From contig NZ_JAALJI010000003.1 in the NCBI RefSeq assembly GCF_011064595.1, positions 124,001-188,000 of the forward strand: a DNA stretch of 64,000 nt. Reading direction: 5' to 3'. This document shows positions 5,744 through 35,210 of this stretch, in pieces. How positions within the stretch are numbered: the first letter of the stretch is position 1; each line of letters begins with the position of its first letter. The notes below the pieces were generated by a model. The model did not search any database. It had not been told where the DNA came from and saw nothing but the letters and a program-made list of their open reading frames with translations. Made by a program: the position numbers and the translations under genes. The DNA comes from Paludisphaera soli (GTDB lineage Bacteria > Planctomycetota > Planctomycetia > Isosphaerales > Isosphaeraceae).

Positions 5744-8260
<2,517 letters not shown>

Positions 8261-8341
8261 GCGGTCTACTCCGATCCCACGTTCTAAGCGGCGACGGGCC
8301 GACGTCCCCATCGAGGCGACGAGCCGTTCCTTGATGCTTTC

Positions 8342-8372
8342 ATTGTACACCCGGGGACGGTCGTCCGTTCAA
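8342..8372 (-). promoter_or_regulatory. Possible clpC promoter with inverted repeat
   Basis: On the minus strand TTGAAC (8372-8367) and TACAAT (8347-8342) are separated by 19 bp (17 if TGTACA is taken as the -10). Between them sits the inverted repeat GGACG-GT-CGTCC (8355-8366), a possible operator. It is not a CIRCE element and not a CtsR heptad repeat. Confidence 0.4.
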
Positions 8373-8517
8373 TACGGCCTACGCCGCCGGTCGGGTTTTC
8401 CGCCGCCGCCGGCACCGCCCCTCGTCCCGACCGCCGCGTCGCCAATCCCCGCCGGCCCGCCCCGTCGGCCGTCCGCGCTTCCCGGTCGAAGACGATCCGG
8501 ACCTCGCTCGGCGTTGC

Positions 8518-9048
8518 TCAGGAATCCGGCCGATCGAGCGATCGGAGGGCCCGCTCGACCTCCCATCGCCACTTCGCGCCGCCGTCCTGTTCGAGGCATT
8601 GCCGGAACGCGCGCCGCGCCAGTTCCGGCTGATGGGTCCGTACGTGGATCGCGCCGAGTTGCAGCAGCGCGTCGGCGTCGGTGTCGTCCAGGGCCAGGAT
8701 CCGCTCCACGCGGCGTCGCGACTCGTTCCAACGCCCTTGCAGGTAGGCCTCGACGGCCTCATAGTACAGCCGTTCGATCTCGGCGCGATGCCGTTCGGGA
8801 TGGCAGAGCCAGACCCACCAGACCGTGTAGCAGAACGAGGCCGACCAGGTCAGGACGGCGGCCGCGGCGAAGAAGTCGGCCCAGCCTGGGGCGAACGCCT
8901 CCACCCAGACCCACCGGGCGGCGATCGCCAGGTTCACGGTCGACGCGAACAGCCCGGCCAGCAGCAGCCCGAAGACCTCCTGCCCGGTCCAGATCTGCGG
9001 CAGTCCCGGCCAGAAACACAACAGCCCGATCCAAGCTCGCCTCGGCAC
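8518..9048 (-). CDS. Membrane protein with C-terminal tetratricopeptide repeats
   Basis: 176 aa. Two to three hydrophobic segments fill the first 95 residues (IGLLCFWPGLPQIW, FGLLLAGLFASTVNLAIAA and AAAVLTWSASFCYTVWWVWL). A cytosolic TPR-like stretch follows (EAYLQGRWNESRRRVERIL, then DADALLQLGAIHVRTHQPEL). The GTG at 9048 is preceded by GGAGGAG. TPR membrane proteins act as scaffolds; no specific role can be named. It lies 257 bp upstream of clpC on the same strand. Confidence 0.78.
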   Translation of the reverse strand: MPRRAWIGLLCFWPGLPQIWTGQEVFGLLLAGLFASTVNLAIAARWVWVEAFAPGWADFFAAAAVLTWSASFCYTVWWVWLCHPERHRAEIERLYYEAVEAYLQGRWNESRRRVERILALDDTDADALLQLGAIHVRTHQPELARRAFRQCLEQDGGAKWRWEVERALRSLDRPDS

Positions 9049-17890: not shown

Positions 17891-19633
17891 TCAGTCGGCC
17901 TTCTTGACGATCCACAGGTCCTGGTGGTACCACCACTCGGCCTGCCGGAAATCGGCGATCGGGGCGCCGACGGACTTGTGCACGATCGGCACGACGTACT
18001 GCGGCAGGCTCAGGGTCAGGCCGTACTCGGCGGCGTCGAGGTCGTGCTGCTCGCTGCGGGCCTGGAACCAGAAGCCCTCCTCGTCGGCGTCGTCGAGCGT
18101 GATCTGCAGTCCCTGGCAGCTCTTCACGCCGTGGGTCGTGAACAGCAGGTAGCCGCCGGGCTCCAGAGAATCGTACAGGGCCTTGATCCAGCGCCCGAAG
18201 GTCGACTTCGGCATGTGGGAGAAGAACGACAGGCAGAAGATCGCGTCGTACTTCTTCGGCGTGGCGAAGCCTTCCGGGGTGTGGGCCGACTGCAGCGCGT
18301 GGACGCCGATCTCGTTCGTGAGGAACTCGATCGCCTCGGGGTGGATGTCGCAGCTCGTCAGGTCGAACCGGGGGTTCTTTTTGAGGTGCCGCGAGACGCA
18401 GCCGTAGCCGGAGGCGAATTCGAGCAGCTTGATCGGCTTCTTCTCCTCGCCGAACAGCCGGGTCAAGTGGCCGTCGAGCTTGGCCGCCGAGCGGGCGCCG
18501 TCCTCGAAGTAGTACTTCGTGGCGTTCTCCAGCGACATCTCCGGGTGGGTGGCCACGAACCAGAAGATGAAGTCCTTCGGGTGGACGCTCGCGGTGACCT
18601 GCTCCTGCTCGGCCCAGTGCCGGTTGAGGCGGAGCATCTCCTCGGTCAGGGCGCCGTCGTTGGGCGGGACCGGGACGCCGCCGGTCTTGGGCTTGGACGC
18701 CTCGGCGACCTCGGCCTCGCTCTTGACGCCGCCCACGTTCACGATGGTCGTCGCCGGGCTGCCCGGCTTGACCTTGAAGAGCATCGCGTACTGGCCCAGC
18801 ACCTCGCCGAGCTTGACGGCGAGCTGGAGTCCGGCGTCGTCGCACATCTCAACGAAGTAGTCGATGTCGACGTCGATCTTGACCTCGTCGCCCGAGTAGC
18901 GCGTGCCCGGGGCCGGGTGGATGTGGATCGTGGGCAGAAACATGCCGGCCGGCGCCAGGGTGCGACGGACCTCGCGCAGGTAGTGCCGCGCGTCGGGCTC
19001 CAGGAGGTGGGTGAAGAGCGAGCATCCCCAGGCGAAGTCGACCGAGCCTTCCTTCGCCGGGAAGGTCACCTCGGTGGGCTTGATCGCCCCTTGGGGGTTG
19101 TAGCACGACAGGACGTCAAGATGGTGGAACTCGAACTTGTCGCCGATCCGGGGGACGAGCACCTGGTTGCAGAAGTCGATCGAGTCCTTGAGGACGTCGA
19201 ACCCGACGTACTTGCGGACGTGCGGATGGTAGGCGAGATTGCGGGCCATCTTGCCGCTGCCGCAGCCGATGTCCAGCAGCAGCGAGTTCGGCTTGAGGAA
19301 CTTGCTGATGAGGATCTGCCAAGCGTCCGCGCTGAGGATGTAGCCCGCCATCGACGGCGAACCGGCGGTCGCCCGGACGCCGGCGGCCGGGATCGGCGGG
19401 ATGATCGCCGACAGGTGCTCGGTCCCGAGGACGTACGGGTCCGGCCCCTCGAACTGGGCCTGCTCCTTCTGGTACTGGGCGAGCTGCATCTTCAGCCAGG
19501 AGATTTCCATCTCCAGGGCCTGCACGTTCGCCGACTTGCCCGCGCCCTCGCCGGCGAGGCCTACGGCGGACATCCGCGGGAAGAGCGTGCCGAGCAGGCC
19601 CTTGCGGGGCTGAGTCGCATTCAGGTTCGCCAT
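17891..19633 (-). CDS. Tandem (two-domain) SAM methyltransferase
   Basis: 580 aa with two complete class-I methyltransferase domains in one chain. Residues 33-60 form a short coiled coil (ALEMEISWLKMQLAQYQKEQ). Domain 1 has motif I LLLDIGCGSGKMARNL at 118-133 and YVGFDVL; domain 2 has LLEFASGYGCVSRHL at 403-417 with LTSCDIHPEAIEF and LEPGGYLLFTTHG. A Pro/Lys linker at about 320-340 separates them. Both SAM sites look intact, although the second has GYG rather than GCG. The ATG at 19633 is preceded by an AAAGG site. Similar double methyltransferases occur in polysaccharide and O-antigen loci, where they methylate terminal sugars. Its position beside two giant glycosyltransferases supports that role here (inference). 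Confidence 0.85.
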   Translation of the reverse strand: MANLNATQPRKGLLGTLFPRMSAVGLAGEGAGKSANVQALEMEISWLKMQLAQYQKEQAQFEGPDPYVLGTEHLSAIIPPIPAAGVRATAGSPSMAGYILSADAWQILISKFLKPNSLLLDIGCGSGKMARNLAYHPHVRKYVGFDVLKDSIDFCNQVLVPRIGDKFEFHHLDVLSCYNPQGAIKPTEVTFPAKEGSVDFAWGCSLFTHLLEPDARHYLREVRRTLAPAGMFLPTIHIHPAPGTRYSGDEVKIDVDIDYFVEMCDDAGLQLAVKLGEVLGQYAMLFKVKPGSPATTIVNVGGVKSEAEVAEASKPKTGGVPVPPNDGALTEEMLRLNRHWAEQEQVTASVHPKDFIFWFVATHPEMSLENATKYYFEDGARSAAKLDGHLTRLFGEEKKPIKLLEFASGYGCVSRHLKKNPRFDLTSCDIHPEAIEFLTNEIGVHALQSAHTPEGFATPKKYDAIFCLSFFSHMPKSTFGRWIKALYDSLEPGGYLLFTTHGVKSCQGLQITLDDADEEGFWFQARSEQHDLDAAEYGLTLSLPQYVVPIVHKSVGAPIADFRQAEWWYHQDLWIVKKAD

Positions 19634-19919: not shown

Positions 19920-22900
19920 ATGGCCCAGGAACGATCCGCCGACGTCATCGTGCCCGTCACGCTCGGCGGACCAGCGATCCTGAGCCGACTCCGCAGGATC
20001 CTGGACTGCAGCGGCCCCCCCCTGCGACGACTTCTGGTCGTCGACGACGGCTGCGCCGATCGCATCCTCTCCCAGGGGCTCGCGGAGCTGTGCGAGACGG
20101 ACCCGAGACTCCAGCATCTGCGGTGTCCGCGAAGCCTGAGCTGGGCCGATTACGCGAACCGCGGGCTCACGGAACGCGGAGGCGACGTCATCCTGCTCGC
20201 CCCCGACGCGCTGCCGACCGCCGGTTGGATCGAGCCCCTGGCGGACGCGGCCCACTCCGAGGAGCGCGTCGCCCTGGCCGTCCCGCTGACCGACGGCGAC
20301 GGCTTCGACGGCGCGGCGGGATCTGACGAGACGGCGGTGAAGCTGGCCATCACGGGGCTGCCCGAGAGCGTCTTCACGCCTCGGTCCGGCGCGGTGTGCA
20401 GCTACCTCCGGGGCGACGTCCTCGACGCTGTGGGCCTGCTGGACCCGTCGCTGAGCTCGCCACGCGCGGCCTTGGACGATTGGCTGATGCGGGCGTGTTC
20501 GCTGGGCTTCTTCGCCAAGCGCTCCGGCCGGTCGGTGGTTCTTCGAGACCCCGACGGGGCCGACGACGCCAAGGGCGACGAAGTTGCGGACCGAGGGATC
20601 CTCGACGCCCGCCATCGCTACATGAGCGGGCAGGCGAGTCGGGATGCCGGCACGCTCGACGGCTCCCTGGCGGCCCACGCGGTGGAGTTCCAATCGACCG
20701 GACGCATCAAGGTCGCCCTGGACCTCCGGCACCTCCCCCTGGAGATGAACGGCACGAAGATGTATGCCGTGAACCTGGGCAAGGCCCTCGCGGCGACGCC
20801 CGAGGTCGACCTGACGCTCCTGGCCGTCCATCCGTTGCAGGCCGACGGGATCGAGGGGCGCCTGGTCTCGCCCGACGAATGGGCCGACGACGTGGCGATC
20901 GTCCACAAGCCCGCCCAGATCTTCGACCGGACTCACGCCCGGCTGCTTTTCGAATCGCGGGCCCACGTCGTCTTGACGTATCAAGATCTAATCGCCTATC
21001 GCATGGCGCACGTCTTCGCGGACGAGGTCGAATACAACGCCTACCAGAAAACGAGCCGGCTGACCCTCCCGGCGGCGCAGGCCGTCCTGACCTACTCGCG
21101 GAACACCGCGGACGAGGCGGCGTCGGAATTCGGCCTCGACCCCGAGGTGATCCACCCGATCTTCCTCGGCGTCGACGTCGAGGCGTTCGCTCTCGACGTC
21201 GACGTGGAGGAGACCGTCTCGACGCTCGCGAAGTTCGATCTTCCCGGCCGATTCTTCCTGAGCCTGGCGTCGGACTACCCGCACAAGAACCTCGCGGGGC
21301 TGCTGGACGCCTACGCCATGTTCCGCAAGTGGTGCACCGCGGGCGAGCCCCCCGCGCTGGCCCTGGCCGGCCGCGCCCCGCGATCCGAGGCCGGTTTCGC
21401 GGACCGTCCCGGAGGCGCGATCCCGGGCGTCCACTTCCTGGGCGTGGTGAGCCACGAGGAATTGCGGGTCCTTTATCAGATGACGGAGGCCCTCGTCTTC
21501 CCATCCCTGTATGAAGGCTTCGGCCTCCCGCCGCTGGAGGCCATGGCCGCGGGCGCGCCGGTGATCGCGATGCCCTTCTCGTCGATCCCCGAAGTCTGCG
21601 GCGACGCGGTCCTGTATGCCGAAGGCCTGTCGCCGGTCGACCTCGCCCGGGCGATGCAACGGATGGCGGCCGAACCGGACCTGCGCCGTGAGCTTCGATC
21701 CCGAGGTCGGGGGCGGGCGGAAGGGCTTTCGTGGGAGAAGACCGCGAAAGAGACGGTGGAGGTCTACCGCAAGGTCCTCCTGAATCCCTCGCCCCGGACG
21801 CTCCAGGCCCGACGTTCCCTGAGCGAGGCCATCGTCCTCTGGTCCCGGCCTCCCGCCGAGACGACGATCCCGGCTCCTGAGGTCGCCGAGGTCGCCGAGG
21901 TCGCCGTCGAGGTTCCGAGCAAAGCGGAGGTCGAGGTCGAGATCGTTCCGGAGCCGATCGAGGCGATCGAGTCCGAGCCAGCGCTCCAGGTTGAAACCCA
22001 ACCGTCCGCTCCGGTCGAGGTCCCCATCGCCGCCTTCATCGACCCTCCGCCGACGATCGAGCCCGAGCCTCTGGGCGTCATTGGCGCCTGCCAGGCCCTG
22101 AAGGCGGCCGTGGGACGCCGGGCTCGGCGCGACCTGACGCGTCGGGCGACGATCCAGCGGGCCCGCCTGGCCCGATTGAAACGGCTCACGCATCGCTTCC
22201 TCCAGGTCGCCAGGACCGACGGGCTGCGGGCCGCGTACGGCAAGGCGACGCGCAAGGCCAAGAACAAGGTTCGGCACACCGTGCGTCGGCTCTGGCCCGC
22301 GCGGACCGCTCGGGGATCGGGCTGTTCCTATTTTCGGCCCGAGCAGCCCCTCGAAGCCTATGAAGCCTGGCGGCTGATCAACGGCCCCTCGGCCTTACGG
22401 GCCGCGAGCCTCGCCGAGAAGGTCGAGGCCCTCGACCGGCCGATCGCGTTCTCGATCCTCGTGCCGGTGTACAACACGGCGCCCGAACTTCTCGACGCGG
22501 CCGTCGCGAGCGTGCTGGGCCAATCCTACCAGGATTGGGAGTTGATCCTGGCCGACGACGCCAGCACCGATCCGTCGCTGGCCGCGTATCTTGCGACGGG
22601 CCTGCCGCGAGACCCTCGCATCAAGCTCGTACGTCGCGAGGTCAACGGCAACATCTCGGCCGCCACGAACTCGGCCGCCGAGCTGGCCACCGGGGAGTTC
22701 TTCGTCCTCCTGGACCACGACGACGTGCTCCATCCCGAGGCCCTGTCCCACCTGGCGATCGGGTTGGCTGGGGCGGAGGACGTCGACCTTGTCTATTCGG
22801 ACGACGACAAGTTGGGCACGGACGGTACGCGCCTCGCCCCGCAATTCAAGCCGGACTGGTCGCCCGAGCTCCTGCTGTCGTTCTGTTACACCGGCCATTT

Positions 22901-25331
22901 GACCGCGGTGAGGGCGAGCCTTTACCGCGAAGTCGGCGGGATGCGGCTGGGGTTCGAAGGGTCGCAGGACCATGACTTCTGGCTGAGGGCGTCCGAGAAG
23001 GCGCGACGGATCGAGCACATCCCGCAGCTCCTCTACCACTGGCGGGTGCTCCCGGGCTCCACGGCGGCGAGCGGACACGAGAAGCCGCACAGCTTCGAGG
23101 CCGGCCGCCGCGCCGTCCAGGAAGCGTTCGCGCGCCGGGGCGTCCCCTGCCGCGTCGAGCAGCCCGAGTGGGCGGTCGCGGCCGGATGCGGGATCTTTCA
23201 ACCCGTCATGCCCGACGACGGTCCGTCGGTCGCCATCCTCATCCCGACGAGAAACCAGAAGAAGCTCCTGCACAACCTCCTCAGGTCGCTGGAGAAGACG
23301 AGCTATCGCAACTACCGGGTCTACATCATCGACAACGAGAGCGACGACCCCGAGACGCTCGATTACCTCGCGAAGGTCCCTCACACGGTCCTTCACATCC
23401 CCAACGTCGACGGTTGCTTCAACTACGCGGCCATCCACAACACGGCCGTGGCCCGCGTGCAGGAGGAGATGCTGCTCTTCCTCAACAACGACGTCGAGGT
23501 CATCGAGCCGCGCTGGTTGAGCCAGATGGTCGGATGGGCCATGCTGCCGGGCGTCGGCACCGTCGGGGCGCGGCTGCTCTACTCGGACCGGAGGATCCAG
23601 CACGCGGGGATCGTTCACGGGCTCCACGAGGGCCTGGCCGGTCACGCGTTCAAGCTCCTCCCGTGGTGGGACGGCGGCGCGATGGGGCTGGCGCGGGTCA
23701 CGCGCGACTGCCTGGCCGTAACCGCCGCCTGCATGCTCACGCCTCGCAAGCTGTTCCTGGATCTGGGCGGCTTCAACGAGGCGGAGTTCGGCGTCGCCTA
23801 CAACGACGCAGACTACGGCTACCGCATCCACGACTCGGGCCGTCGCAACGTCTTGTGCGCCGAGGCCGAGCTGTTCCACCATGAAGGCGCGACGCGAGGG
23901 TTCGGCGACAACCCCCGGGAGGAGGCGAACTATCGACGCATCCACGGCCATCGCCGCGACCCGTACTTCAGCCCCCACTACGACGCCCTGAGCGAATCCT
24001 TCGAGATCAAGCCGACCGTCGTCCCGGTCTCCGCGGCCGGACGGCCCGTGCGAGTACTGGCCGTCTCGCACAATCTGAATTGGGAAGGGGCGTCGCGTTT
24101 CGAATTGGAGCTGACGAGCGGGCTCAAGGCGTCGGGCGAGGTCGATCCGATCGTGGTGAGCCCGGTGGACGGACCGCTTCGCGAGGAGTACGAAAAGGCG
24201 GGCGTCGCCGTCCGCATCGACCCCTCCATCGTCTGCCTGTTCGGAGGCGAAGTCGCCTATGCCGAGGCCCGAGATCGGACGATCGGCCTGCTGGCCGAGC
24301 AGGGTTGCGACGTCCTCCACGCCAACACGCTCCAGGGCTTCTGGGCGGTCGACGCGGCGCGGCGGGCACGCGTCCCTTCGATCTGGAGCATCCACGAGAG
24401 CGAATCGTGGCAGACCTACTTCGACCAGTTCCCGGCAGAGATCGGCCGCATCGCCCTGGGCTGCATGGCGGACCCTTACCGCGTCGTTTTCACCGCTCGG
24501 AGTTCGGCCGAGGTCTGGAAAGACCTGAATACCCGGGGGAACTTCGACCTCGTCCGCTACGCCCTGAACGTCGGGCGATTCCAGGCCGAGTTGGCCGACT
24601 GCCCGCGCGACTCCGCCCGCGCGGCGTTGGGTTTGTCGATGGATGAGGTCTGCGTCCTGCTGCTGGGCACGGTCTGCGACCGCAAGGGTCAGCACGATCT
24701 CGTCCACGCCTTCCGAAGCCTGTCACCCGACGCGGCGAGCCGGATTCGGTGCGTCGTCGTCGGGGCTCGGGACTCGCTCGAATACAGCCGCCACCTGAGG
24801 CGGCTCGCGTCCGAACTCGGGGCCGATCGTCGCGGTCGTTTCCACATCGTCGACGAGACCGGGGCCACCGCGCCCTACTGGCAGGCGGCCGACGTCTTCT
24901 GCTGCACGTCGAGGGTGGAGAGCTACCCCCACGTCATCCTGGAGGCGCTCGGCCGGGGCTTGCCGATCGTCTCGACGCCGGTCTACGGGATCCCCGAGCA
25001 GGTCAGGCCGAACCTCAACGCGTTGTTCTATGGGCCCGGCGACGTGCGGGCGCTGGCGAAGCATCTGGAGGTCCTGGCCCGCGACGACTCGAAGCGGGCC
25101 GCGATGGCCGAAGCCTCGTCCTGGATCCTCCGCGCCCTCCCGAGCCACGCCGACATGATCGAGCGCTATGGCAAGCTCTTCCGCGCCGCGGCCGAGAGCT
25201 CCGTGGCCGGCGAGGCGTCGCGACCGATCCCCGCCGCTTCCGGAGGGGCCGACGACCTCTATCGACTCGATCAAGGGCACGCGAGCATCCTGCGTGTTCG
25301 GACGTCGATCTCGGCCACGATCTCCGAATAG
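19920..25331 (+). CDS. Giant multi-domain glycosyltransferase (GT2/GT4/GT2/GT2/GT4)
   Basis: 1803 aa, several times a normal glycosyltransferase. Reading order: an N-terminal GT2-like domain (residues 1-250; VDDGCADRILSQG and LAPDALPTAGW); a GT4 domain starting at RIKVALDLRHLP (262) with its donor-site box SLYEGFGLPPLEAMAAGAPVI near 528; an acidic Glu/Val/Pro hinge (about 650-725); a basic helical stretch; a GT2 domain (FSILVPVYNTAPELL at 844, DHDDVLHPEAL); a second GT2 (SVAILIPTRNQKKLL at 1103, FLNNDVEVI); and a final GT4 (VRVLAVSHNLNWEGASR at 1377, SRVESYPHVILEALGRGLP). GGAGG lies 5 nt before the ATG. Such fusions assemble repeat-unit polysaccharide at the cytoplasmic face of the membrane; no transmembrane segment is seen. 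Linkage and sugars are unknown. Confidence 0.9.
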   Translation: MAQERSADVIVPVTLGGPAILSRLRRILDCSGPPLRRLLVVDDGCADRILSQGLAELCETDPRLQHLRCPRSLSWADYANRGLTERGGDVILLAPDALPTAGWIEPLADAAHSEERVALAVPLTDGDGFDGAAGSDETAVKLAITGLPESVFTPRSGAVCSYLRGDVLDAVGLLDPSLSSPRAALDDWLMRACSLGFFAKRSGRSVVLRDPDGADDAKGDEVADRGILDARHRYMSGQASRDAGTLDGSLAAHAVEFQSTGRIKVALDLRHLPLEMNGTKMYAVNLGKALAATPEVDLTLLAVHPLQADGIEGRLVSPDEWADDVAIVHKPAQIFDRTHARLLFESRAHVVLTYQDLIAYRMAHVFADEVEYNAYQKTSRLTLPAAQAVLTYSRNTADEAASEFGLDPEVIHPIFLGVDVEAFALDVDVEETVSTLAKFDLPGRFFLSLASDYPHKNLAGLLDAYAMFRKWCTAGEPPALALAGRAPRSEAGFADRPGGAIPGVHFLGVVSHEELRVLYQMTEALVFPSLYEGFGLPPLEAMAAGAPVIAMPFSSIPEVCGDAVLYAEGLSPVDLARAMQRMAAEPDLRRELRSRGRGRAEGLSWEKTAKETVEVYRKVLLNPSPRTLQARRSLSEAIVLWSRPPAETTIPAPEVAEVAEVAVEVPSKAEVEVEIVPEPIEAIESEPALQVETQPSAPVEVPIAAFIDPPPTIEPEPLGVIGACQALKAAVGRRARRDLTRRATIQRARLARLKRLTHRFLQVARTDGLRAAYGKATRKAKNKVRHTVRRLWPARTARGSGCSYFRPEQPLEAYEAWRLINGPSALRAASLAEKVEALDRPIAFSILVPVYNTAPELLDAAVASVLGQSYQDWELILADDASTDPSLAAYLATGLPRDPRIKLVRREVNGNISAATNSAAELATGEFFVLLDHDDVLHPEALSHLAIGLAGAEDVDLVYSDDDKLGTDGTRLAPQFKPDWSPELLLSFCYTGHLTAVRASLYREVGGMRLGFEGSQDHDFWLRASEKARRIEHIPQLLYHWRVLPGSTAASGHEKPHSFEAGRRAVQEAFARRGVPCRVEQPEWAVAAGCGIFQPVMPDDGPSVAILIPTRNQKKLLHNLLRSLEKTSYRNYRVYIIDNESDDPETLDYLAKVPHTVLHIPNVDGCFNYAAIHNTAVARVQEEMLLFLNNDVEVIEPRWLSQMVGWAMLPGVGTVGARLLYSDRRIQHAGIVHGLHEGLAGHAFKLLPWWDGGAMGLARVTRDCLAVTAACMLTPRKLFLDLGGFNEAEFGVAYNDADYGYRIHDSGRRNVLCAEAELFHHEGATRGFGDNPREEANYRRIHGHRRDPYFSPHYDALSESFEIKPTVVPVSAAGRPVRVLAVSHNLNWEGASRFELELTSGLKASGEVDPIVVSPVDGPLREEYEKAGVAVRIDPSIVCLFGGEVAYAEARDRTIGLLAEQGCDVLHANTLQGFWAVDAARRARVPSIWSIHESESWQTYFDQFPAEIGRIALGCMADPYRVVFTARSSAEVWKDLNTRGNFDLVRYALNVGRFQAELADCPRDSARAALGLSMDEVCVLLLGTVCDRKGQHDLVHAFRSLSPDAASRIRCVVVGARDSLEYSRHLRRLASELGADRRGRFHIVDETGATAPYWQAADVFCCTSRVESYPHVILEALGRGLPIVSTPVYGIPEQVRPNLNALFYGPGDVRALAKHLEVLARDDSKRAAMAEASSWILRALPSHADMIERYGKLFRAAAESSVAGEASRPIPAASGGADDLYRLDQGHASILRVRTSISATISE
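21879..21905 (+). repeat. Three tandem 9-nt repeats in the hinge of the giant glycosyltransferase
   Basis: GAGGTCGCC is repeated three times exactly, in frame, encoding EVA-EVA-EVA from residue 654. It lies in the acidic linker between the first GT4 and the following GT2 domains, a place where length can vary without harm. Confidence 0.75.
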
Positions 25332-25846: not shown

Positions 25847-28800
25847 TCAGGCGCTCTCGCGAGAGGCGCAACTCGTCCGCTCGGGGGCGCTGGTCGTCGG
25901 AAGTCCCTCGCGTGGGAAGACCAGGAAGTCGCGGGCGTGGAAATAGGCTTCGACGCAGACGTGGGCCGCGTGTCGGACGTCGAACCGAGCCTCGAAGAGC
26001 TGTCGTGCCCTGCAGACGTGGTCGGCGTGGAGGTCGGCCTGGCGAAGGTAGCGGAGCATGGCCGCGACCATGCGGTGCACGTCCAGCCCTGTGTGCTCAT
26101 TCGCTTTCGGGGCGATCCCGGCCGTGCAGCCGTCGAGCGTCAGCATGTCGTGGATCGGCCCTCTGTTGGGGGCGATGACGGGGAGGTGGCTCGCCAGGGC
26201 CGCCGCGACGTGAATCGACGTCTCGGCCGAGAGTTCCCCGGCCGGAGCCAGGGCCGCGTCGCACTGGCCCAAGAGACAGCGGAGGTCGCGGTCCGCGGAC
26301 GCGGCGATAGCGGAATCTCGGGGGTCGGCTCCGGGCTCCGTGAGAACCAGTCGCACGCGGCGACCGCCCCGCTCCACGGCCGGTAGTCGATTGAGGATTC
26401 GGACGGCCGTCATCGCGTCCCGGCTCGCCCGGGACGAGCCCGCGCCCCCGGGGACCAGATAGACGAGGAACTCGCCTTGCCTCTTGACGATCGGGCCCGT
26501 CTTCTCAACCCGCGTGTCGTCGTTCTTGAGGCCCGGGAAGAGCAGGAGCCAGCGGCGCGAGGCCAGCTCGGCCCAATGCTCGTCCAGGGCCGGCGCGACG
26601 GGAGTCTGGTGGAAGACGCCGGAGATCAATTCCTTCGTTCGAGCTGGACGCAGTTCCGGGCTGGAGCATCCCGCCTCGTGGTGGACGAACCAGGGGAGGT
26701 TCAGATCGGCGTTGATCTGCGCGACGAGCCGGTCGCCCGAGGGATTGAGGGAGTGGACGACGTCGATCTCGTGGAATCGGATCAATTCCTGGAGGACCGT
26801 GACGCGTACGCGACCGGCGATCGAGCCTTCAGGCGCCTCGGAGGCGGACCAGGGAGTCGTGCCGAGGGTCCCTTCGAGGAGGACGACGCGATCGCTCAGT
26901 CGCTCCTGCAAGGCCAGCCCCGCCTCGCCGGGAGCGGCCGCGCAGAGGAACACGCGATGGTCGCGGGCCAGCTCGTCGGCGAGGTCGATCGTGGCGGTCG
27001 CGGCGAGGCCGGATTCGGAGCCGTCGACGACGAGCAGGATCTTCAACTCGCCGGTCGCGTCGAGCTTGCGGCGGAAAAGCTCGCGGATCTCGCCCAACGG
27101 ACGTCCGGTGCGAGGGTTGTTCATCAGCGAGGGACGTTTGAGGGCGAACCGCTCCGTCATCAGCTCGTATTCGAACAGGGTCTGGCCGAGGCTGCGCGCC
27201 ATGGCGTTGAGCGAGACGTCGAACGTCTCGAAGATGCGTCGCTTGACGTGGAGCGTTTCCTCGGCGTGGGTGTCGGCCTTGATCGACTGGAAGGAGACGG
27301 TCTGCTCGTGTCGCCGGTAGTCGTTGAGCGACTCGGGCACGAACGCGATCTTCCCGCCGCGGATCATCAACGCATAAAACAGCCAATCGCCGGCGAACCG
27401 CATGCCCGCCAGCTCGTCGGCGAAATCGAGCCGCTCTGGCTTGCGGAAGAGGACGGCGCTGGCGTTGGGGACCGTGTTCTTCTGGCTCAGCGCGACCTCA
27501 GCCTCCTCGGCCGCCTCGGCGCGGTAGGCCTTCCGCCATCTCGCGACATCCAGGTCGTCGGTGTGGCCGAGGAAGTCGGCCGCCCAGCGCTCGTCGTTCG
27601 GGCCGATGAGCCCCGACTGGCAGTAGGCCAGGATCACCTCGGGGTCGTGAAACTCGGGGATCAGACGTTCCAGGAACTGGGGCCGGCAGGAGTCGTCGGA
27701 CTCGGCGAACCAGATCAGGTCTCCGGTGGCCAGGTCCATCCCCTTCATCCACTGGCGGAAGGTGCTGCCGCTGTTCTCCTCGTTGACGATGATCCGCATC
27801 GGCACGGGCGACTCGGGCGCCAGGCGTCGCGCCACCTCCACGCTGTCGTCGGGCGACGCGTCGTCGAGGAAGATGATCTCATGCGGCCGGACGGTCTGCT
27901 CGAACAGGCTTCGCAGCCGCGTCTCGAGGAAGGGGGCGTGGCGGTAGTTCGGCACGATCACCGAGACCTTGAGGCTCGGCGCCGGACTGTAACCGTAATC
28001 GGCGCGGAGGATCGTCAGGAACTCGTCCATGAAGCGCGGCCAGGTGAACAGGCTGCGGACGACGGTCCGTCCTCGACGGCCCATCGTCGACCTCGCGTCG
28101 TCGTCGTTCAGGAGCTCGCGGATCGCGCGGGCCATCGCGGGGACGTCCAGGTACGGGACCGCGACGCCGCCGCCGTCGAGCACCTCGGGCGCTCCACCGG
28201 AGCCCTGGAAGGCGACGACCGGCAAGGCGCTCTCCATCGCCTCCAGGTTCGCGAACGGGCAAGGGTCCTCTCGCGAGGTCAGGGCGAAGACGTCGGCGGC
28301 GAGAAAATACGGAGACAGGTCGCCGCGGACGCCGGCGAAAAGGATCCGATCGGCGAACCCGGAAGCCTCGACGTCGTGCCGGAGCCACTGGAAGAAGTCC
28401 GGCAGGACGACATGGCCGAACCAGACGAAATAGGTCCGCTCGGCCAGATCGGCGGTACTCGGGTCGGAGAGGACCGTCCGCGCGGCCTGGACGAAGAGAT
28501 CGGCCCCCTTGCGGAGGTCGATCGTGCCGCATCCGAGGATGATCCGCGCGTCGTCGGGCAGGTTCAGCTCGGCCCGCACGCTCTCGCGCATCTCCTCGCG
28601 CGAGAGGCCCCGCGTCTTCGCGTCCAGGCCGTATCGGACCGTCTGGATGCGGTCGGCGCCGACGTCGAATCGGTTGATGAGGGCGTTGCGAACGACCTCG
28701 GCGGGGACGATCGTTCGACGGCTCGCGGCCTTGATTCGTTCGATCGCCTCGACGCCGCCGAGGATCTCGATGAAGGTCGGAAGCTCGTGGATCCAGGACA

Positions 28801-30472
28801 GGACCGGGACGTCGGCGGCCTCGAAAGCCTCGTGGAACTCGCTCACGGCCATCGTATTGCAGACCGCCGCCCCATTGCGGGCGTACTCGCGGAATCGCTC
28901 GGCGATGACGGACGGGGCAGCAGCCCAGGACGCGATGCCGGCTTCGACGACCTTGGCGAGGACCAGGGTCGGCGCCCGACGGGCGAACTCCGCCACCAGA
29001 TCACCGCCGGTCTTCAGGACGACCCAGCACTCGATCCCCGGGACACGCGACAGCTCCTCGCAAAGCCGGAGGAGGCTGAAGGGGGCGCCGGTGCGGCAGG
29101 CCGAATGAGAGACCAGGAGAACCTTGAACGACGCCTGCACCCTCGAGGCGGCGTCGTCGGAATCGACCCGGGGTTTGCTCCACGGGAGATCCTCGAAGCG
29201 GGGCGGCGCGGTGGGAGTCGCGACAGGCGCGGCGAGTTCGGCTTTCGCGGCGGGCTCGACCTGGACGCCGAGCGACTTTCCGACCTTCCGGAACAACCGG
29301 CGGGAGGCTCGACTCAGGGCCGGCCGGGGTCCTTCGGAGACCGCCACGCGGAGGAACCGGATCGAGAGGGCGACGCAGCGGCCGTGAAGCCGGGTTTCCG
29401 GAAAGAACCGAGTCTTCACGCCCCGACAACGCTCGATCCATCTCGATGCCGTGCTTCGACGCAAGACTTCCAGCTGGGCCATCGCGGCGGCGTGATGATA
29501 CTGGTAGTGGGCCAGGTGCTGCCGCAGACCGGGGATCTCGCGGCCCTGGTTCGCGTGCTCGATCGAGATCGCCCGGTGCCGCTCCTCCAGGATCGCCAGT
29601 TCCTCACGGAGCACGTGCACTTCCTCGCGGAGGGCCAAGGCCTCCTCGACGGTGTTCGTCCTAGGCGGCGAGGACCAGTCCGGCGTCGATCCCCCGCCAT
29701 CTGCGTCGGCGTCCCCGCCGCCCAGTTCGAGGATCGCGGAGTCGGCGTCCAGCCCTTCGGATTCGATCGCCATGCGATCGGCCAGGCTCCGGCCCAGCCT
29801 CGCGTAGACGGATCGGATCTCGTTGCGACGCCCGGGGACGGCGTCGGCGTCGAACAGGCCCTTGAGCCGCTCGGGGGGATTGGGACCCAGCGCGACGAGA
29901 CCGAGACCTTCGCCGTGCGTGAACTCGAAGCTCGGATGCCGCTCGGCCAGGTCGCGAAATGCGGCGTGGGAGCCGAACCGACGACCCTGGACGCAGGTCC
30001 GCGACAGGATCAGGACGGCCCGGTCGGAGAGCTTCGCTCGCCATCGATCAAAATCTTCGAGGAACGATTCGAGGTCCGCTCCGTCCGACGGGTGGACGAG
30101 GTCGAGGGACCGGTCGTCGAACGCCTCGACTCCGACGGCATGGTGGCGGAGCAGCTTCGAGAATGAGGAGTAGCGGCGGTCGTGGGCGTCCCGAACGCGC
30201 TGGATCGAGGCTTCCAGGAAGGCCGAGCTCGAGGAGTCGTCGCGTTCCGGCTCCAGGGCGACGCATCGGGCGTCGAGGCCGAGTCGACGAACGGCCTCGC
30301 ACATCGAGAAGTAGACGGCGGGCTCGCGAAATCCGAGCTGCGCGACCCTTCGCGGCCGGGCCGCGTCCACCGTCCAGAATATCATGGGGCTGAACTGGGC
30401 GTGCGCGATCGGATCGAAGGCGTGATCGGGCGTCCAGAAAGACGCCGGCGACAGATATTGTGAGACGTCCAT
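25847..30472 (-). CDS. Giant glycosyltransferase with N-terminal methyltransferase-like domain (MT/GT4/GT2/GT4)
   Basis: 1541 aa. Residues about 40-230 form a methyltransferase-like Rossmann fold (RVAQLGFREPAVYFSMCEA, VALEPERDD, ILSRTCVQGRRFG) with no classic GxGxG, so activity is doubtful. Residues about 273-341 are a coiled coil (EEALALREEVHVLREELAIL). A GT4 domain (FKVLLVSHSACRTGAPFSLL at about 449) has the donor box EDPCPFANLEAMESALPVV. A GT2 domain follows (KVSVIVPNYRHAPFLETRL at about 833, with DDASPDDS and ESDDSCRPQFLERL), then a further GT4-like domain (LKILLVVDGSESGLAATA at about 1143). The ATG at 30472 has GAGGAG upstream; the longer in-frame extension is rejected. With the 1803-aa enzyme next door it probably makes the same surface polysaccharide (inference). 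Confidence 0.88.
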   Translation of the reverse strand: MDVSQYLSPASFWTPDHAFDPIAHAQFSPMIFWTVDAARPRRVAQLGFREPAVYFSMCEAVRRLGLDARCVALEPERDDSSSSAFLEASIQRVRDAHDRRYSSFSKLLRHHAVGVEAFDDRSLDLVHPSDGADLESFLEDFDRWRAKLSDRAVLILSRTCVQGRRFGSHAAFRDLAERHPSFEFTHGEGLGLVALGPNPPERLKGLFDADAVPGRRNEIRSVYARLGRSLADRMAIESEGLDADSAILELGGGDADADGGGSTPDWSSPPRTNTVEEALALREEVHVLREELAILEERHRAISIEHANQGREIPGLRQHLAHYQYHHAAAMAQLEVLRRSTASRWIERCRGVKTRFFPETRLHGRCVALSIRFLRVAVSEGPRPALSRASRRLFRKVGKSLGVQVEPAAKAELAAPVATPTAPPRFEDLPWSKPRVDSDDAASRVQASFKVLLVSHSACRTGAPFSLLRLCEELSRVPGIECWVVLKTGGDLVAEFARRAPTLVLAKVVEAGIASWAAAPSVIAERFREYARNGAAVCNTMAVSEFHEAFEAADVPVLSWIHELPTFIEILGGVEAIERIKAASRRTIVPAEVVRNALINRFDVGADRIQTVRYGLDAKTRGLSREEMRESVRAELNLPDDARIILGCGTIDLRKGADLFVQAARTVLSDPSTADLAERTYFVWFGHVVLPDFFQWLRHDVEASGFADRILFAGVRGDLSPYFLAADVFALTSREDPCPFANLEAMESALPVVAFQGSGGAPEVLDGGGVAVPYLDVPAMARAIRELLNDDDARSTMGRRGRTVVRSLFTWPRFMDEFLTILRADYGYSPAPSLKVSVIVPNYRHAPFLETRLRSLFEQTVRPHEIIFLDDASPDDSVEVARRLAPESPVPMRIIVNEENSGSTFRQWMKGMDLATGDLIWFAESDDSCRPQFLERLIPEFHDPEVILAYCQSGLIGPNDERWAADFLGHTDDLDVARWRKAYRAEAAEEAEVALSQKNTVPNASAVLFRKPERLDFADELAGMRFAGDWLFYALMIRGGKIAFVPESLNDYRRHEQTVSFQSIKADTHAEETLHVKRRIFETFDVSLNAMARSLGQTLFEYELMTERFALKRPSLMNNPRTGRPLGEIRELFRRKLDATGELKILLVVDGSESGLAATATIDLADELARDHRVFLCAAAPGEAGLALQERLSDRVVLLEGTLGTTPWSASEAPEGSIAGRVRVTVLQELIRFHEIDVVHSLNPSGDRLVAQINADLNLPWFVHHEAGCSSPELRPARTKELISGVFHQTPVAPALDEHWAELASRRWLLLFPGLKNDDTRVEKTGPIVKRQGEFLVYLVPGGAGSSRASRDAMTAVRILNRLPAVERGGRRVRLVLTEPGADPRDSAIAASADRDLRCLLGQCDAALAPAGELSAETSIHVAAALASHLPVIAPNRGPIHDMLTLDGCTAGIAPKANEHTGLDVHRMVAAMLRYLRQADLHADHVCRARQLFEARFDVRHAAHVCVEAYFHARDFLVFPREGLPTTSAPERTSCASRESA

Positions 30473-30627
30473 GTCCTTCACGCTCCTCGCATCCCCCCCT
30501 CGCCCTACGATCCGCGAGGCCGGCCCGATCGCCCGGGCGTCCCGTCGATCGGACGCTCGCGCCGTCGGTTGCTCGCCGTCGCCTCGTACTTCGGGAGGTG
30601 GGAACGACCGCTCCTGAGTCATCCGGA

Positions 30628-30885: not shown

Positions 30886-31105
30886 CACGCGGCCGCGAGG
30901 TGAAGCGGACGAGCACGGCACTCGGCCACCTCGCGCAGGACGTCGTCCGCGATGGATTCGAGGCGCGACGTCCGCCTCAGGTGGACTGGATTCTCCCGAC
31001 GCCCGCGACGGCCCAGGATGGGACCCGCCGCCCTTGCATGCATCGCAGAGCCTCGGCTCCAGGCCCGGCCGACGCCGCTATCCCGTCTGACGCAAAGGAA
31101 TGCCC

Positions 31106-32311
31106 ATGCACGTCTTCACGAGCATCACGGCCAATTACCTTCCCAAGGCCGCGGCGCTGGCCCACTCCGTCAAGCGTGTGCATCCCGAGGCGGTCTTCCA
31201 CATCGTGCTCTCGGACGACATGCCGGATTGCCCGGACGAGGTGACGGCGGCCTTCGATTCGATCATCAACATCCGCGAGCTGCCGATCCCGGACCTCCCG
31301 CGCTTCATTTTCCGTCATCGCGTGGTCGAGCTCTGCACGGCCGTGAAGGGGAGGGCGTTCCAGCATATCGCCGACGTCCACGGCGCGGATCGCATCTACT
31401 ATTTCGACCCGGACATCATCGTCACCAACAGGCTCGACGACCTGGAACGGGCCCTGGACTCGGCGAGCGTGCTGCTCACGCCGCACTCGATCGAGCCCGA
31501 GACCGATCCGATGGCGATGATGGACAACGAGATCACCTGCCTCAAGCACGGCGTCTACAACCTGGGCTTCCTGGCCGTACGCATGGATCCGGAAGGCCGC
31601 CGATTCATCGACTGGTGGGCCGACCGCCTGACCCGCTGGTGCTACGACGAGGTCCCCGCCGGTCTCTTCACGGACCAGCGGTGGGTCGACCTCGCCCCCG
31701 CCATCTTCGACGGGATCAAGATCCTTCGCGACCCCCAGTACAACGTCTCCACCTGGAACCTGAGCCACCGCCGAGGGACCGGCGAGGCCCCCTACGACAT
31801 CGCGATCAACGGCCGACCGCTGGTCTTCTACCATTTCTCCGGCTTCGACAGCGGCGCCCAGCTCATGATGCTGGACCGCTACGGCTCGCACAGCCCGGTG
31901 CTCTACGAGTTCCGCGAGTGGTATCTGGATCAGTGCGAGCGGTTCGGCCAGTCGACCCTGGGCAAGATCCCCTGTCGCTACACCCGGTACGCCGGCGGCT
32001 CGAAGATCGAGGACGCCCATCGGGTGACCTACCGCCGACGCGACGACCTGATGACTTACTTCGCCGACCCATTCGACGATTCGGACCCGTCGAACTCGTA
32101 CCGCGACTGGTATCGGGTCCACGTCGAGGCGCCCGCCTCCCCGGCACCGGTCGAGCCTCGGCCTGGATCGGAACCCGAAGGCCGAGACCTCGCCCCCGCG
32201 GAATCGGCCCCGAGTCTCCGCCGGGCGTTGCGAGCCCACGCCCCCGAGCCGGCGATCAAGGCCTTTCGGTCGGTACGGTCGGCCTGGCGGAAGCTGGCCA
32301 AGGTCGACTGA
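31106..32311 (+). CDS. GT8-like glycosyltransferase
   Basis: 401 aa. A GT-A fold enzyme: MHVFTSITANYLPKAAALAHS at the N-terminus is the nucleotide-sugar binding strand typical of GT8-type transferases, and RIYYFDPDIIV (residues about 92-102) supplies the DxD-like metal site. YNLGFLAVR and WVDLAPAIFDGIKIL follow as expected. A C-terminal extension rich in Pro/Ala/Arg is not part of the fold. The ATG at 31106 is preferred over 31100 because AAAGGA then has normal spacing. It is followed after 53 bp by the UDP-GlcNAc 2-epimerase gene on the same strand. Donor and acceptor are unknown. Confidence 0.8.
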   Translation: MHVFTSITANYLPKAAALAHSVKRVHPEAVFHIVLSDDMPDCPDEVTAAFDSIINIRELPIPDLPRFIFRHRVVELCTAVKGRAFQHIADVHGADRIYYFDPDIIVTNRLDDLERALDSASVLLTPHSIEPETDPMAMMDNEITCLKHGVYNLGFLAVRMDPEGRRFIDWWADRLTRWCYDEVPAGLFTDQRWVDLAPAIFDGIKILRDPQYNVSTWNLSHRRGTGEAPYDIAINGRPLVFYHFSGFDSGAQLMMLDRYGSHSPVLYEFREWYLDQCERFGQSTLGKIPCRYTRYAGGSKIEDAHRVTYRRRDDLMTYFADPFDDSDPSNSYRDWYRVHVEAPASPAPVEPRPGSEPEGRDLAPAESAPSLRRALRAHAPEPAIKAFRSVRSAWRKLAKVD

Positions 32312-32364: not shown

Positions 32365-33516
32365 ATGATTTCGAGCGATCCTGAGCGTCGACGCACGAAC
32401 GTCGTCTGCGTCGTCGGGACGAGGCCGGAGGCGATCAAGATGGCGCCGGTCGTCCGGGCCCTTCGCGACCAGTCGTGGGCCCGCTGCCGGCTCGTGTTCA
32501 CGGCCCAGCATCGCGATCTGGCGGATCCGATCTTCGAACTCTTCGACGTCCGGCCGGACGTCGACCTGGATGTGATGCGGCCGGGCCAGTCGCTCCCGGA
32601 CCTGAGCAACCGACTGCTGGTCTCCGTGCATCAGGCCCTGATGCGCGAGAGGCCGGACTGCGTGGTCGCCCAGGGGGACACCACGACGGTCCTGGCCTCG
32701 GCCCTCGCGAGCTACATGCTGGGCATCCCGTTCGCGCATGTGGAGGCCGGGCTGCGCACGCACCGGCTCGACGCCCCCTTTCCCGAGGAGGCCAACCGCG
32801 TCGCGGCCACCCACCTCGCGTCGATCCACTTCGCGCCGACGCCGACCGCGCGGGAGAATCTACTCCGCGAGGGGATCGCGCCCGAGGCCGTCCATCTGAC
32901 GGGCAACACGGGCATCGACGCCCTCCACTTCGCGGCCGAGCGCGAGGCCGCCCTGCCTCACGGGCCGGCCCCCGGGGCCCGCTTCGTCCTGGTCACCGTC
33001 CACCGCCGCGAGAACCTGGGCGAACCGCTTCGGCGGATCTGCGAGGGCGTCCGCCGCCTGCACGACCTCCATCCCGACGTCGAATTCCTCTGGCCGGTCC
33101 ACCCCAATCCCGGCGTGGAGCCCGTCGTCCGCGAGGCGCTCGGGAGCCTGGAACGAGTCCATCTTTCGCCGCCGCTCGATTACGGGCCGTTCGTGACGGC
33201 GATGAAGCGAGCGACGATGATCCTCAGCGACAGCGGCGGCGTCCAGGAGGAAGCCACGGCGCTCCGGACGCCGGTGCTGGTGCTCCGCGACGTCAGCGAG
33301 CGTCAGGAGGCCGTCCGCTGCGGCGTCGCGAGGCTGGTCGGCGCGGATCCGGACGCGATCGCTCGAGAGGGCGGGCGACGGCTCGCCGAGGCGACCGACG
33401 GAGATCGTCGCTCGGACTTCGCGACCCCGTTCGGCGACGGCCGGGCCGCGGCCCGGATCGCTTCGATCCTTCACCGCAAGCTCCACGTCGAGGCGCCGAC
33501 GACCGTCGGCGTCTGA
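32365..33516 (+). CDS. wecB: UDP-N-acetylglucosamine 2-epimerase (non-hydrolysing)
   Basis: 383 aa, the usual size of WecB/MnaA. It interconverts UDP-GlcNAc and UDP-ManNAc, the entry to ManNAc-containing surface glycans. Seen: VVGTRPEAIKMAPVVRAL (N-terminal family box), VVAQGDTTTVLASALASY, FAHVEAGLRTHRLDAPFPEEANR, LTGNTGIDAL, VHRRENLG and DSGGVQEEATALRTPVLVLRD, covering the substrate-binding and catalytic residues. GGGAGGG lies just before the ATG. It probably forms an operon with the upstream GT8-like gene and ends 15 bp from the convergent sulfotransferase gene. Confidence 0.95.
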   Translation: MISSDPERRRTNVVCVVGTRPEAIKMAPVVRALRDQSWARCRLVFTAQHRDLADPIFELFDVRPDVDLDVMRPGQSLPDLSNRLLVSVHQALMRERPDCVVAQGDTTTVLASALASYMLGIPFAHVEAGLRTHRLDAPFPEEANRVAATHLASIHFAPTPTARENLLREGIAPEAVHLTGNTGIDALHFAAEREAALPHGPAPGARFVLVTVHRRENLGEPLRRICEGVRRLHDLHPDVEFLWPVHPNPGVEPVVREALGSLERVHLSPPLDYGPFVTAMKRATMILSDSGGVQEEATALRTPVLVLRDVSERQEAVRCGVARLVGADPDAIAREGGRRLAEATDGDRRSDFATPFGDGRAAARIASILHRKLHVEAPTTVGV

Positions 33517-33531
33517 AACGACGGGCGAGGA

Positions 33532-35067
33532 TCAGATCGGTCGGTCCACTCGCGAGGACCTCGGCTCGCCGTTCGGCCCCAGATGCCGGAACTTGAGCCA
33601 GATCTGCTTAATCTGCCGCTTCCCCTTCACGGCGGCGCCGATCAGGGCGTTCGACTCGAATCGGTCCAGCCTGCGACGTAGGGCCACGTTTTCCTGCCAT
33701 CGCTTCTCCTCGCGCTCCAGCGAGCGGACAAGCTGCTGCTCCTTGCGAGTGGCCGTCTCCTGGAGTTTCGCCGCCTGATCCAGAGCGACTTCGAGACGAG
33801 TCCGATCGGAATCCCAGCCCCCCTGCGACGTGGCGAGCGCCTGCTGGAACAGCTTGAGACTCCGCTCCTGCCGGTCGAGCGACTCGGCGAGTCGACGCTG
33901 CGTCTCCAGAAGCGCCTGCTCCTTGTGAGCCAGGATCCCCTGGGTATGGGCGAGCAGCTGCTCGGCCTGGACGCGCCGTTCTTGATTGGAGACCGAGTAC
34001 TCCATGACGCGACAGAGCTGCTTCTCGGTCTGTTCCAGGCACGATTTGGCGAGGAGAAAGGCCTTCTCGGTCTCGTTGAGGGCCTGTCGGGTCGTGGCGA
34101 GTCCATGCTCGGCGAGCGCGGCCCTGTGCTCCAGGTCGTGGATTCTTTCCGCTGGGTTGTTCCGTTCGGCCTCGCGGAGCAGCACGATCGTCTTGCCGAG
34201 TTCCGCTCGGGCCGCCTTGAGCTGGCCGTGCATCGCGGCCTCGTAACGGCGGGCGTCGCGGGCGATTCGCTGGGCGTTGGCCTCGGGGTCGACTTCGATC
34301 CAGGCCTCGCGTCCCAGGGCGTTCAGAGTGTCCTGGGCCTGGTGGGCGACGACCGCCGGCAAGTGATGTACGCAAGACTGGTCGTAGAGGCGACGTACGG
34401 TGTCCTCGCACCAGGGCAACCCGCAGGCGTCGGCCAGCTCTTGCATGTCTTCCCAGAACGCGGGCGTCCCGAAACGGACGACGAGCGATCGGCTCTCCTC
34501 GTCGGACGCCGCCTTCATCCTCGACAGGTGGACGCCCACCACGTCCAGCGCGTTCCAGTACGACATGCTGCCCTGGCTTCGGGTGCAGAGGCTCATCGCG
34601 ATCTCGTGCGGCGACCGGAGGAGCGATGAGGCGACGACGTCCACGCCCTGGAATCGGGAGAACACCTGTCGCCAGAACGGCCAGACGAGCACCGTACGGG
34701 GGTCCTTGAATCCCGACACCGGGCCGCTCTCGATCAGAAGGCGCGTGATGTGCTCGCCCTCGTCGAGCCAGTGTTCCGGGACGAGGCGGTCGGTCGGCCA
34801 CTCGCCCTGGGATTCCAGGAATCGAGCGAGGACCGCCGGTTCATCCGGGATGTCGTCGGCGAACCCGAAGGCCCATTCCTGGACTCGACGGTTGAGAGAG
34901 TGGAACGGGATGGCCTCGAAGTGACCGTATGGGTTGCTCGGAGCCGCCTCGATCAGTTCGAACGGACCGAGAGACAGGCCCAGTTTCTGCAGGATGTTCG
35001 CCGTCAGGCTCGAACCGCTGCGATGCATGCACAAGAGGACGACGAGCTTGCGATTCGGTCCATCCAT
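33532..35067 (-). CDS. Sulfotransferase-family protein with long C-terminal coiled coil
   Basis: 511 aa. Residues about 8-30 (LVVLLCMHRSGSSLTANIL) form the PAPS-binding P-loop of the sulfotransferase superfamily, and VVASSLLRSPHEIAMSLCTR (about 145) resembles the 3'-phosphate-binding region. The transferase domain ends near residue 260. From about 285 to 480 the chain is a continuous heptad-rich coiled coil (AERNNPAERIHDLEHRAALA, LLETQRRLAESLDRQERSL), with a basic tail. Coiled-coil extensions of this length are unusual for sulfotransferases and suggest a scaffold or length-control role. The ATG at 35067 has GAGGTGG at good spacing; a GTG at 35076 is the alternative. Sulfation of the surface polysaccharide is the contextual inference. 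Confidence 0.75.
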   Translation of the reverse strand: MDGPNRKLVVLLCMHRSGSSLTANILQKLGLSLGPFELIEAAPSNPYGHFEAIPFHSLNRRVQEWAFGFADDIPDEPAVLARFLESQGEWPTDRLVPEHWLDEGEHITRLLIESGPVSGFKDPRTVLVWPFWRQVFSRFQGVDVVASSLLRSPHEIAMSLCTRSQGSMSYWNALDVVGVHLSRMKAASDEESRSLVVRFGTPAFWEDMQELADACGLPWCEDTVRRLYDQSCVHHLPAVVAHQAQDTLNALGREAWIEVDPEANAQRIARDARRYEAAMHGQLKAARAELGKTIVLLREAERNNPAERIHDLEHRAALAEHGLATTRQALNETEKAFLLAKSCLEQTEKQLCRVMEYSVSNQERRVQAEQLLAHTQGILAHKEQALLETQRRLAESLDRQERSLKLFQQALATSQGGWDSDRTRLEVALDQAAKLQETATRKEQQLVRSLEREEKRWQENVALRRRLDRFESNALIGAAVKGKRQIKQIWLKFRHLGPNGEPRSSRVDRPI

Positions 35068-35210
35068 GACATCCACCTCGAACCATCCGTGATTGGTGCG
35101 CGAATCGCCCGGCGTCTCCCGGGGCGGAGACCTGCGTTACATTTTTTCGGCCGTTCGTGCCGCTCGGCATCACGACTTTATCGATTAAGCCGGAGGTGGC
35201 GACCCCGTTT

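Follow-up and report, generated by a model that had tools for sequence, protein, structure and literature searches.

The 64,000-nucleotide stretch of Paludisphaera soli DNA analysed here, which we refer to as the window (positions 124,001 to 188,000 of contig NZ_JAALJI010000003.1), carries on its minus strand the gene for a giant protein of 1541 amino acids. Its parts and neighbouring genes are listed below in order of position; residue numbers of lost sites, here and throughout, follow the intact relative L027.

17891 to 19633, minus strand: tandem class I methyltransferase, syntenic and 75-91% identical in 5/5 orthologous loci
19920 to 25331, plus strand: multi-glycosyltransferase of 1803 amino acids with GT4 and GT2 domains; syntenic homologue, cut by the locus end, in 5/5 orthologous loci
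25847 to 30472, minus strand: giant gene, 1541 codons, with full-length orthologues and a conserved SD motif and MDV start
25943 to 27112, minus strand: third module, GT4-like but degenerate; none of the six orthologues has EX7E, and Pfam does not recognise the second half of the window's copy
27113 to 27976, minus strand: GT2 module; SDD and GDW motifs kept in 6/6
27977 to 29152, minus strand: first GT4 module; RKG loop and DX7E in 6/6
29153 to 29437, minus strand: post-coil linker, common to the glycosyltransferase homologues of sister genera, with matches in L091, L093 and L094
29438 to 29647, minus strand: predicted coiled coil, 70 amino acids in five of six orthologues and 77 in the sixth
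29648 to 29791, minus strand: variable linker, 27-62 amino acids among orthologues, 0/48 positions invariant
29792 to 30472, minus strand: predicted pseudo-methyltransferase domain of Methyltransf_24 fold, residues 1-227 from the ATG at 30472
29999 to 30004, minus strand: former H169-D170, Ser-Arg in the window; D170 is Arg in 5/6 and Lys in 1/6
30077 to 30088, minus strand: former metal/catalytic motif D141-x2-H144, SDGA in the window; both residues lost in 6/6
30326 to 30340, minus strand: former motif I, with QLGFR for ELGTH; Gln replaces E56 and Arg replaces H60 in 6/6
32365 to 33516, plus strand: UDP-GlcNAc 2-epimerase family, syntenic and called in 4/5 orthologous loci (not in L022)

The open frame on the minus strand covers 25847-30622, or 1591 amino acids when counted from its first ATG. 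The ATG at 30472, which the original prediction had taken as the start, is likely the true one, since MDV begins the protein in all six genomes of this planctomycete genus (window genome counted in) with 'agga' just upstream, as gaagga or a close variant, and none of the 50 residues ahead of it is invariant among the six orthologues. Use of the in-frame ATG at 30622 is unlikely, and this start was rejected, as conservation begins only at MDV, 51 residues in; the similarity RSVKD that precedes MDV in five orthologues is explained by a translated ribosome-binding site. The span 25847-30472 is a real gene, with a full-length orthologue in each of the six genomes; the five others are 57-70% identical to the window protein. 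An assembly fusion was rejected, as the long frame is full-length in all six, and so was an antisense frame of 1229 amino acids, since GC by codon position (0.70/0.49/0.86) favours the minus strand.

The orthologous loci compared here extend some 5-9 kb to each side of the giant gene. The tandem class I methyltransferase (17891-19633) is better conserved than the giant proteins, and a relative of 354 amino acids with 62% identity lies in the G059 cluster (L091:6631-7695). Two further genes, 31100-32311 on the plus strand and 33532-35076 on the minus strand, are syntenic and have no match in Pfam (E 0.001) or NCBIfam (E 0.01); the start of the latter presumably resembles a P-loop sulfotransferase. 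In one genome the orthologous cluster also holds MBOAT and AlgX-like genes, recognised by Pfam (L024:671-3376).

The N-terminal domain is very probably a methyltransferase by descent and fold, and not by activity, as judged from its sequence and from a structure model. In the window protein it reaches 17.5 bits (E 0.0081) against Pfam Methyltransf_24 (PF13578), and the orthologues L022 and L026 reach 22.8 and 24.6 bits, all below the gathering cut-off of 26.3. It is 37-40% identical to its nearest relatives in the same family, and by alignment and tree it is nested among intact Methyltransf_24 members. L027, L028 and L029, stand-alone relatives of the same family and class, match Methyltransf_24 with E 9e-26 to 1.5e-29; in each, the methyltransferase domain is followed by a tail resembling a coiled coil. 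A model of domain plus coil, built from a six-row alignment including intact relatives, which guided it, has pLDDT 70 and pTM 0.64. The modelled domain adopts a Rossmann-like class I methyltransferase fold: Foldseek returns O-methyltransferases (best E 1.9e-8), and VIA-align superposes 175 residues on an O-methyltransferase with Z 14.3 and rmsd 3.9, and gives Z 13.8 for MeT1. A PDB sequence search with the profile of the six orthologous N-terminal domains gave a best E of 1.4, and among the 25 NCBIfam matches listed for the giant protein there are general glycosyltransferase models alone, below their cut-offs. In the window genome, the profile of the intact family matches only the giant gene at 1e-10 among the matches listed, and the broader Pfam Methyltransf_24 model matches four other genes, two above the cut-off. 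A pattern search of the named genomes returned five loci, one of them within the genus. The proposal of a methyltransferase-like Rossmann N-terminus lacking the classic SAM loop is thus borne out, with Methyltransf_24 homology and a replaced motif I; it was to fall if the domain proved unrelated to methyltransferases and the coil unconserved, and on inspection the domain is related and the coil conserved.

The catalytic equipment of this fold has been lost throughout the genus. The Asp-x2-His and His-Asp residues of the active site are absent from all six orthologues, as are E56, H60, G62 and S64 of motif I. The alignment has 56 columns shared by at least 21 of 23 relatives chosen as intact (four degenerate relatives having been set aside beforehand); all six orthologues have lost 20 of these and kept 14, and the remaining 22 are mixed. 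The lost ones include E56, H60, G62, S64, W87, D141, G142, H144, H169 and D170. In contrast, of 27 Methyltransf_24 domains outside the genus, 22 keep the four key residues D141, H144, H169 and D170, one (L032) keeps three and four are degenerate (the second copy in L051, L054, L055 and L105), in a non-random sample where L098/L099, L052/L053 and L054/L055 are near-copies. The D141/H144/D170 of the intact relatives align with IDGGH...IHD of MeT1 (6g7d). They also have the same spacing (+3, +29) as D275/H278/D304, named as the active site of ThnM1 and MycE in the accessible part of PMC9275233, a match by spacing and not by alignment. Three of the positions are replaced uniformly: in 6/6 E56 has become Gln and H60 has become Arg, and D170 is now Arg in five orthologues or Lys in one. 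The window protein carries these as Gln45, Arg49 and Arg158. The sequence suggests that the old pocket has turned basic (His60Arg, Asp170Arg/Lys), and it may therefore grip a phosphorylated carrier or a nucleotide instead of SAM and metal; SAM may also be bound through residues other than the known ones.

Despite these losses the domain is under constraint. Among the six orthologues 66 of 227 positions are invariant, the length is 224-228 amino acids, the mean pairwise identity is 57% and every pair is at least 50% identical. Mean pN/pS is 0.48 for the domain, 0.24 for GT2 and 0.55 for the decayed third glycosyltransferase module, figures that are rough because pS is 0.48-0.63, near saturation.

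Behind the domain and the variable linker lies the coiled coil that had been noted ahead of the glycosyltransferases, and it is indeed there at near-constant length in the six orthologues. The 70-residue stretch, its boundaries set by eye, shows a/d heptad periodicity above that of shuffled sequences in 6/6 orthologues (p 0.0008 to 0.011); for the first 36 residues, p is below 0.05 in 4/6, the window's own value being 0.12. Low-confidence helices are predicted by the model at 275-309 and 315-342. In the orthologue L026 (8726-13288) the coil is longer by exactly seven residues, or one heptad (77 vs 70).

The C-terminal part was originally read as GT4/GT2/GT4, and its first two modules stand by Pfam and by motifs. 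The first GT4 (Pfam E 2.5e-23) has DPCPFANLE, with the acidic residues of the E/DX7E motif, in 6/6 orthologues. The GT2 (PF00535, E 1.3e-24) is a GT-A match with its acidic motif and, at a mean pairwise identity of 81%, is the best conserved part of the giant protein. The third module is instead a degenerate GT4: EX7E is found in 0/6, the single Pfam match to a C-terminal GT4 half in the window protein lies inside the first module, and the Glyco_transf_4 match is below the cut-off in the window, although that of the orthologue L022 passes. Of the four longer homologues known from beyond the genus, three (L092, L093 and L094) also have a shortened module that has lost its second half. A PDB sequence search gave no sensible match for it (best E 0.34), and we make no claim about its fold because its structure model, with pLDDT 37, is unusable.

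A conserved domain without catalytic residues at the end of a coil of near-constant length invites a reading as a passive ruler or stop module, in which the dead domain would hold on to the chain end, leaving it unmodified, and the reach of the chain would be set by the coil. The constraint on the domain, the coil length and the uniform new residues in the former pocket all agree with such a device. In E. coli O9a, however, wbdD mutants make polymer without exporting it, and termination is needed for export (PMC3482155, accessible part), which argues against a stop without a cap, and we consider this reading quite unlikely.

Known systems in which the same kinds of parts act as an active terminator offer a closer comparison. 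As far as the accessible part of PMC11231755 describes it, the O7 protein ORF6 of Klebsiella pneumoniae joins a methyltransferase-kinase terminator, shown to be active, to a coil, two GT2 modules and a predicted CBM in an ABC-transporter pathway. It resembles the window protein in carrying a terminator-type domain, a coil and polymerising glycosyltransferases on one polypeptide, in the same order. It differs in its active methyltransferase-kinase, its CBM and its ABC pathway; a kinase, a CBM and a transporter were not found for the window protein. WbdD of E. coli O9a likewise combines an N-terminal methyltransferase fold with a coiled coil in glycan assembly and differs in having a kinase and an active methyltransferase, with the polymerase in the separate WbdA (PMC3482155, accessible part); WbdD is absent among the PDB matches listed for the family profiles. 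By sequence, the intact family's nearest relative of known structure is MeT1, the mycobacterial methylmannose polysaccharide 1-O-methyltransferase (6g7d/6g80; E 0.0014 with profile A3 and 0.021 with A4), an active stand-alone enzyme with IDGGH...IHD, residues which the window domain lacks.

The wider family consists of Methyltransf_24-coil proteins, stand-alone or fused to GT2, GT4 or RgpF, in which a homologous N-terminal domain is followed by a coil as in the window; fusions to glycosyltransferases are found in L031, L097, L098, L101, L102 and L104. Ten plasmid loci were taken out of 50 and 43 matching records, chosen mostly for fused annotations; nine have the four key residues intact and one (L105) is degenerate. 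On an incomplete gene table, at least five of the ten have a permease and an ABC ATPase within 5 kb (four of the nine intact loci, plus L105) and at least one more has a permease alone. dTDP-rhamnose genes occur in nine of the ten, including eight of the nine intact ones. In L097, L100, L102 and L106, the gene for an intact Methyltransf_24-coil-GT protein, annotated as no more than 'glycosyltransferase' or 'rhamnan synthesis F', immediately follows ABC permease and ATPase genes, and both ATPases scanned (L097 and L102) carry Wzt_C. By their sequence and gene context, these four proteins are candidate methyl-capping chain terminators. The degenerate L105 protein, a 'hypothetical protein' of 980 amino acids from a plasmid of Jannaschia sp. 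M317 (L105:4947-7889), also lies beside ABC transporter genes.

The idea of a chain terminator or ruler therefore holds well for part of the family, because the intact fusions beside ABC genes (permease and ATPase directly upstream in four of nine intact loci) fit the scheme in the accessible part of PMC11231755, and is weakened for the window protein. An active terminator in the manner of WbdD, O7 ORF6 or WbbB, whose N-terminal domain caps the chain once it spans the coil, could draw on the O7-like order of parts, on these ABC neighbours and on a coil of 70 residues or exactly one heptad more. Against it, the catalytic residues are gone in 6/6, Pfam finds no kinase in the giant protein, and a scan of 31 of the 37 called window genes (the other six encode 94-347 amino acids) found no ABC transporter family. 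Wzt_C genes are present in all six genomes of the genus, over the cut-off in five, and are located away from the giant gene: on other contigs in five genomes (these are drafts, so another contig may still be linked beyond the stretches read) and, for one of two in G003, about 470 kb off on the same contig. With its active site dead, and with no kinase or transporter found in the vicinity, the window protein is unlikely to terminate chains by methylation, and we regard an active terminator as very unlikely.

Sister genera give an indication of how the protein arose. Among 148 genomes of the class, the glycosyltransferase part is found at E <= 1e-60 in at least 12, namely the six of the window genus and at least six of other genera of the family. 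The methyltransferase domain is absent (BLASTP, E 1e-3) from all six homologues inspected outside the genus (L091-L096, from five genomes, leaving out a copy in G060), and L095 and L096 are also without the first GT4. Five of the six listed non-genus genomes with a glycosyltransferase homologue, G034 being the exception, carry a separate intact methyltransferase-coil gene, compared with 8 of 39 genomes of the family outside the genus that have any match to such a gene. The two genes are about 6 kb apart in G059 and G016 and about 2 Mb apart in G028; G060 and G062 have them on separate contigs. Phylogenetically, the six dead domains fall into a single clade (support 100/100) with a long stem branch of 1.17. 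This clade adjoins L027 and L050, intact proteins of G028 and G059, with support of 92/78, below the starred threshold. The simplest history would be a fusion of two proteins, followed by loss of catalysis before the genus diversified; alternatively, the glycosyltransferase core of the sister genera could have lost the domain rather than never having had it. That the domain is merely decaying after fusion and functionless, as the long stem and the decaying third glycosyltransferase module (shortened in relatives too) might imply, is highly improbable, as after the stem its frame has stayed open at 224-228 amino acids with at least 50% identity in all pairs, and 66/227 of its positions are invariant vs 0/48 in the neighbouring linker.

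Degenerate domains are also found elsewhere in the family. L051:17810-19901 encodes a degenerate Methyltransf_24 fused to a GT2, in a frame that runs off the stretch, with an intact copy (7032-8933) in the same 20 kb. L054:7022-7777 and L055:6228-6995 encode stand-alone degenerate relatives of 251 and 255 amino acids in one genus of the family, the former just after the gene for transcription-repair coupling factor. The tree needs two changes, and the long branches of L105 and L054/L055 join with weak support; a single origin of all degenerate domains is possible. With comparable losses in L051, L054/L055 and L105, dead methyltransferases of this kind could conceivably turn up repeatedly in glycan machinery.

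We favour, as reasonably probable, the reading of the giant protein as a two-site glycosyltransferase with a methyltransferase-coil partner kept as a pseudoenzyme scaffold. In the proposed model, a methyltransferase-coil protein and a glycosyltransferase protein would have been joined in, or before, the ancestor of the genus, and the dead domain would no longer methylate. It would instead oligomerise or position the enzyme via the coiled coil, holding an acceptor or partner while GT4 and GT2 add sugars, and its basic former pocket may have exchanged SAM and metal for a phosphorylated carrier or a nucleotide as ligand. Scaffolding or docking is the likeliest role of the dead domain, which is probably a holding or docking part and not a cap-adding part, and the product is probably a surface glycan. 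A tentative extension, which we consider unlikely, is that a captured terminator module was killed and rebuilt as a basic pocket at the far end of the coil, forming a non-catalytic sensor or anchor that reads a phosphorylated carrier or chain end and so sets where, or for how long, the two glycosyltransferase sites work.

The giant protein is a fusion, conserved in the genus, in which a probable pseudo-methyltransferase and its coil precede a two-site glycosyltransferase. We found no published title describing such an arrangement, which is a weak test, as subscription journals were mostly uncovered. The family context is useful in itself, as the intact fusions beside Wzm/Wzt-type genes at four loci look like methyl-capping terminators. 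In some bacterial surface glycans, chain length is controlled by terminator enzymes atop coiled coils; if the scaffold reading is true, fusion of a dead terminator-like domain to its glycosyltransferases would uncouple measuring or holding from the capping step, and would do so testably.
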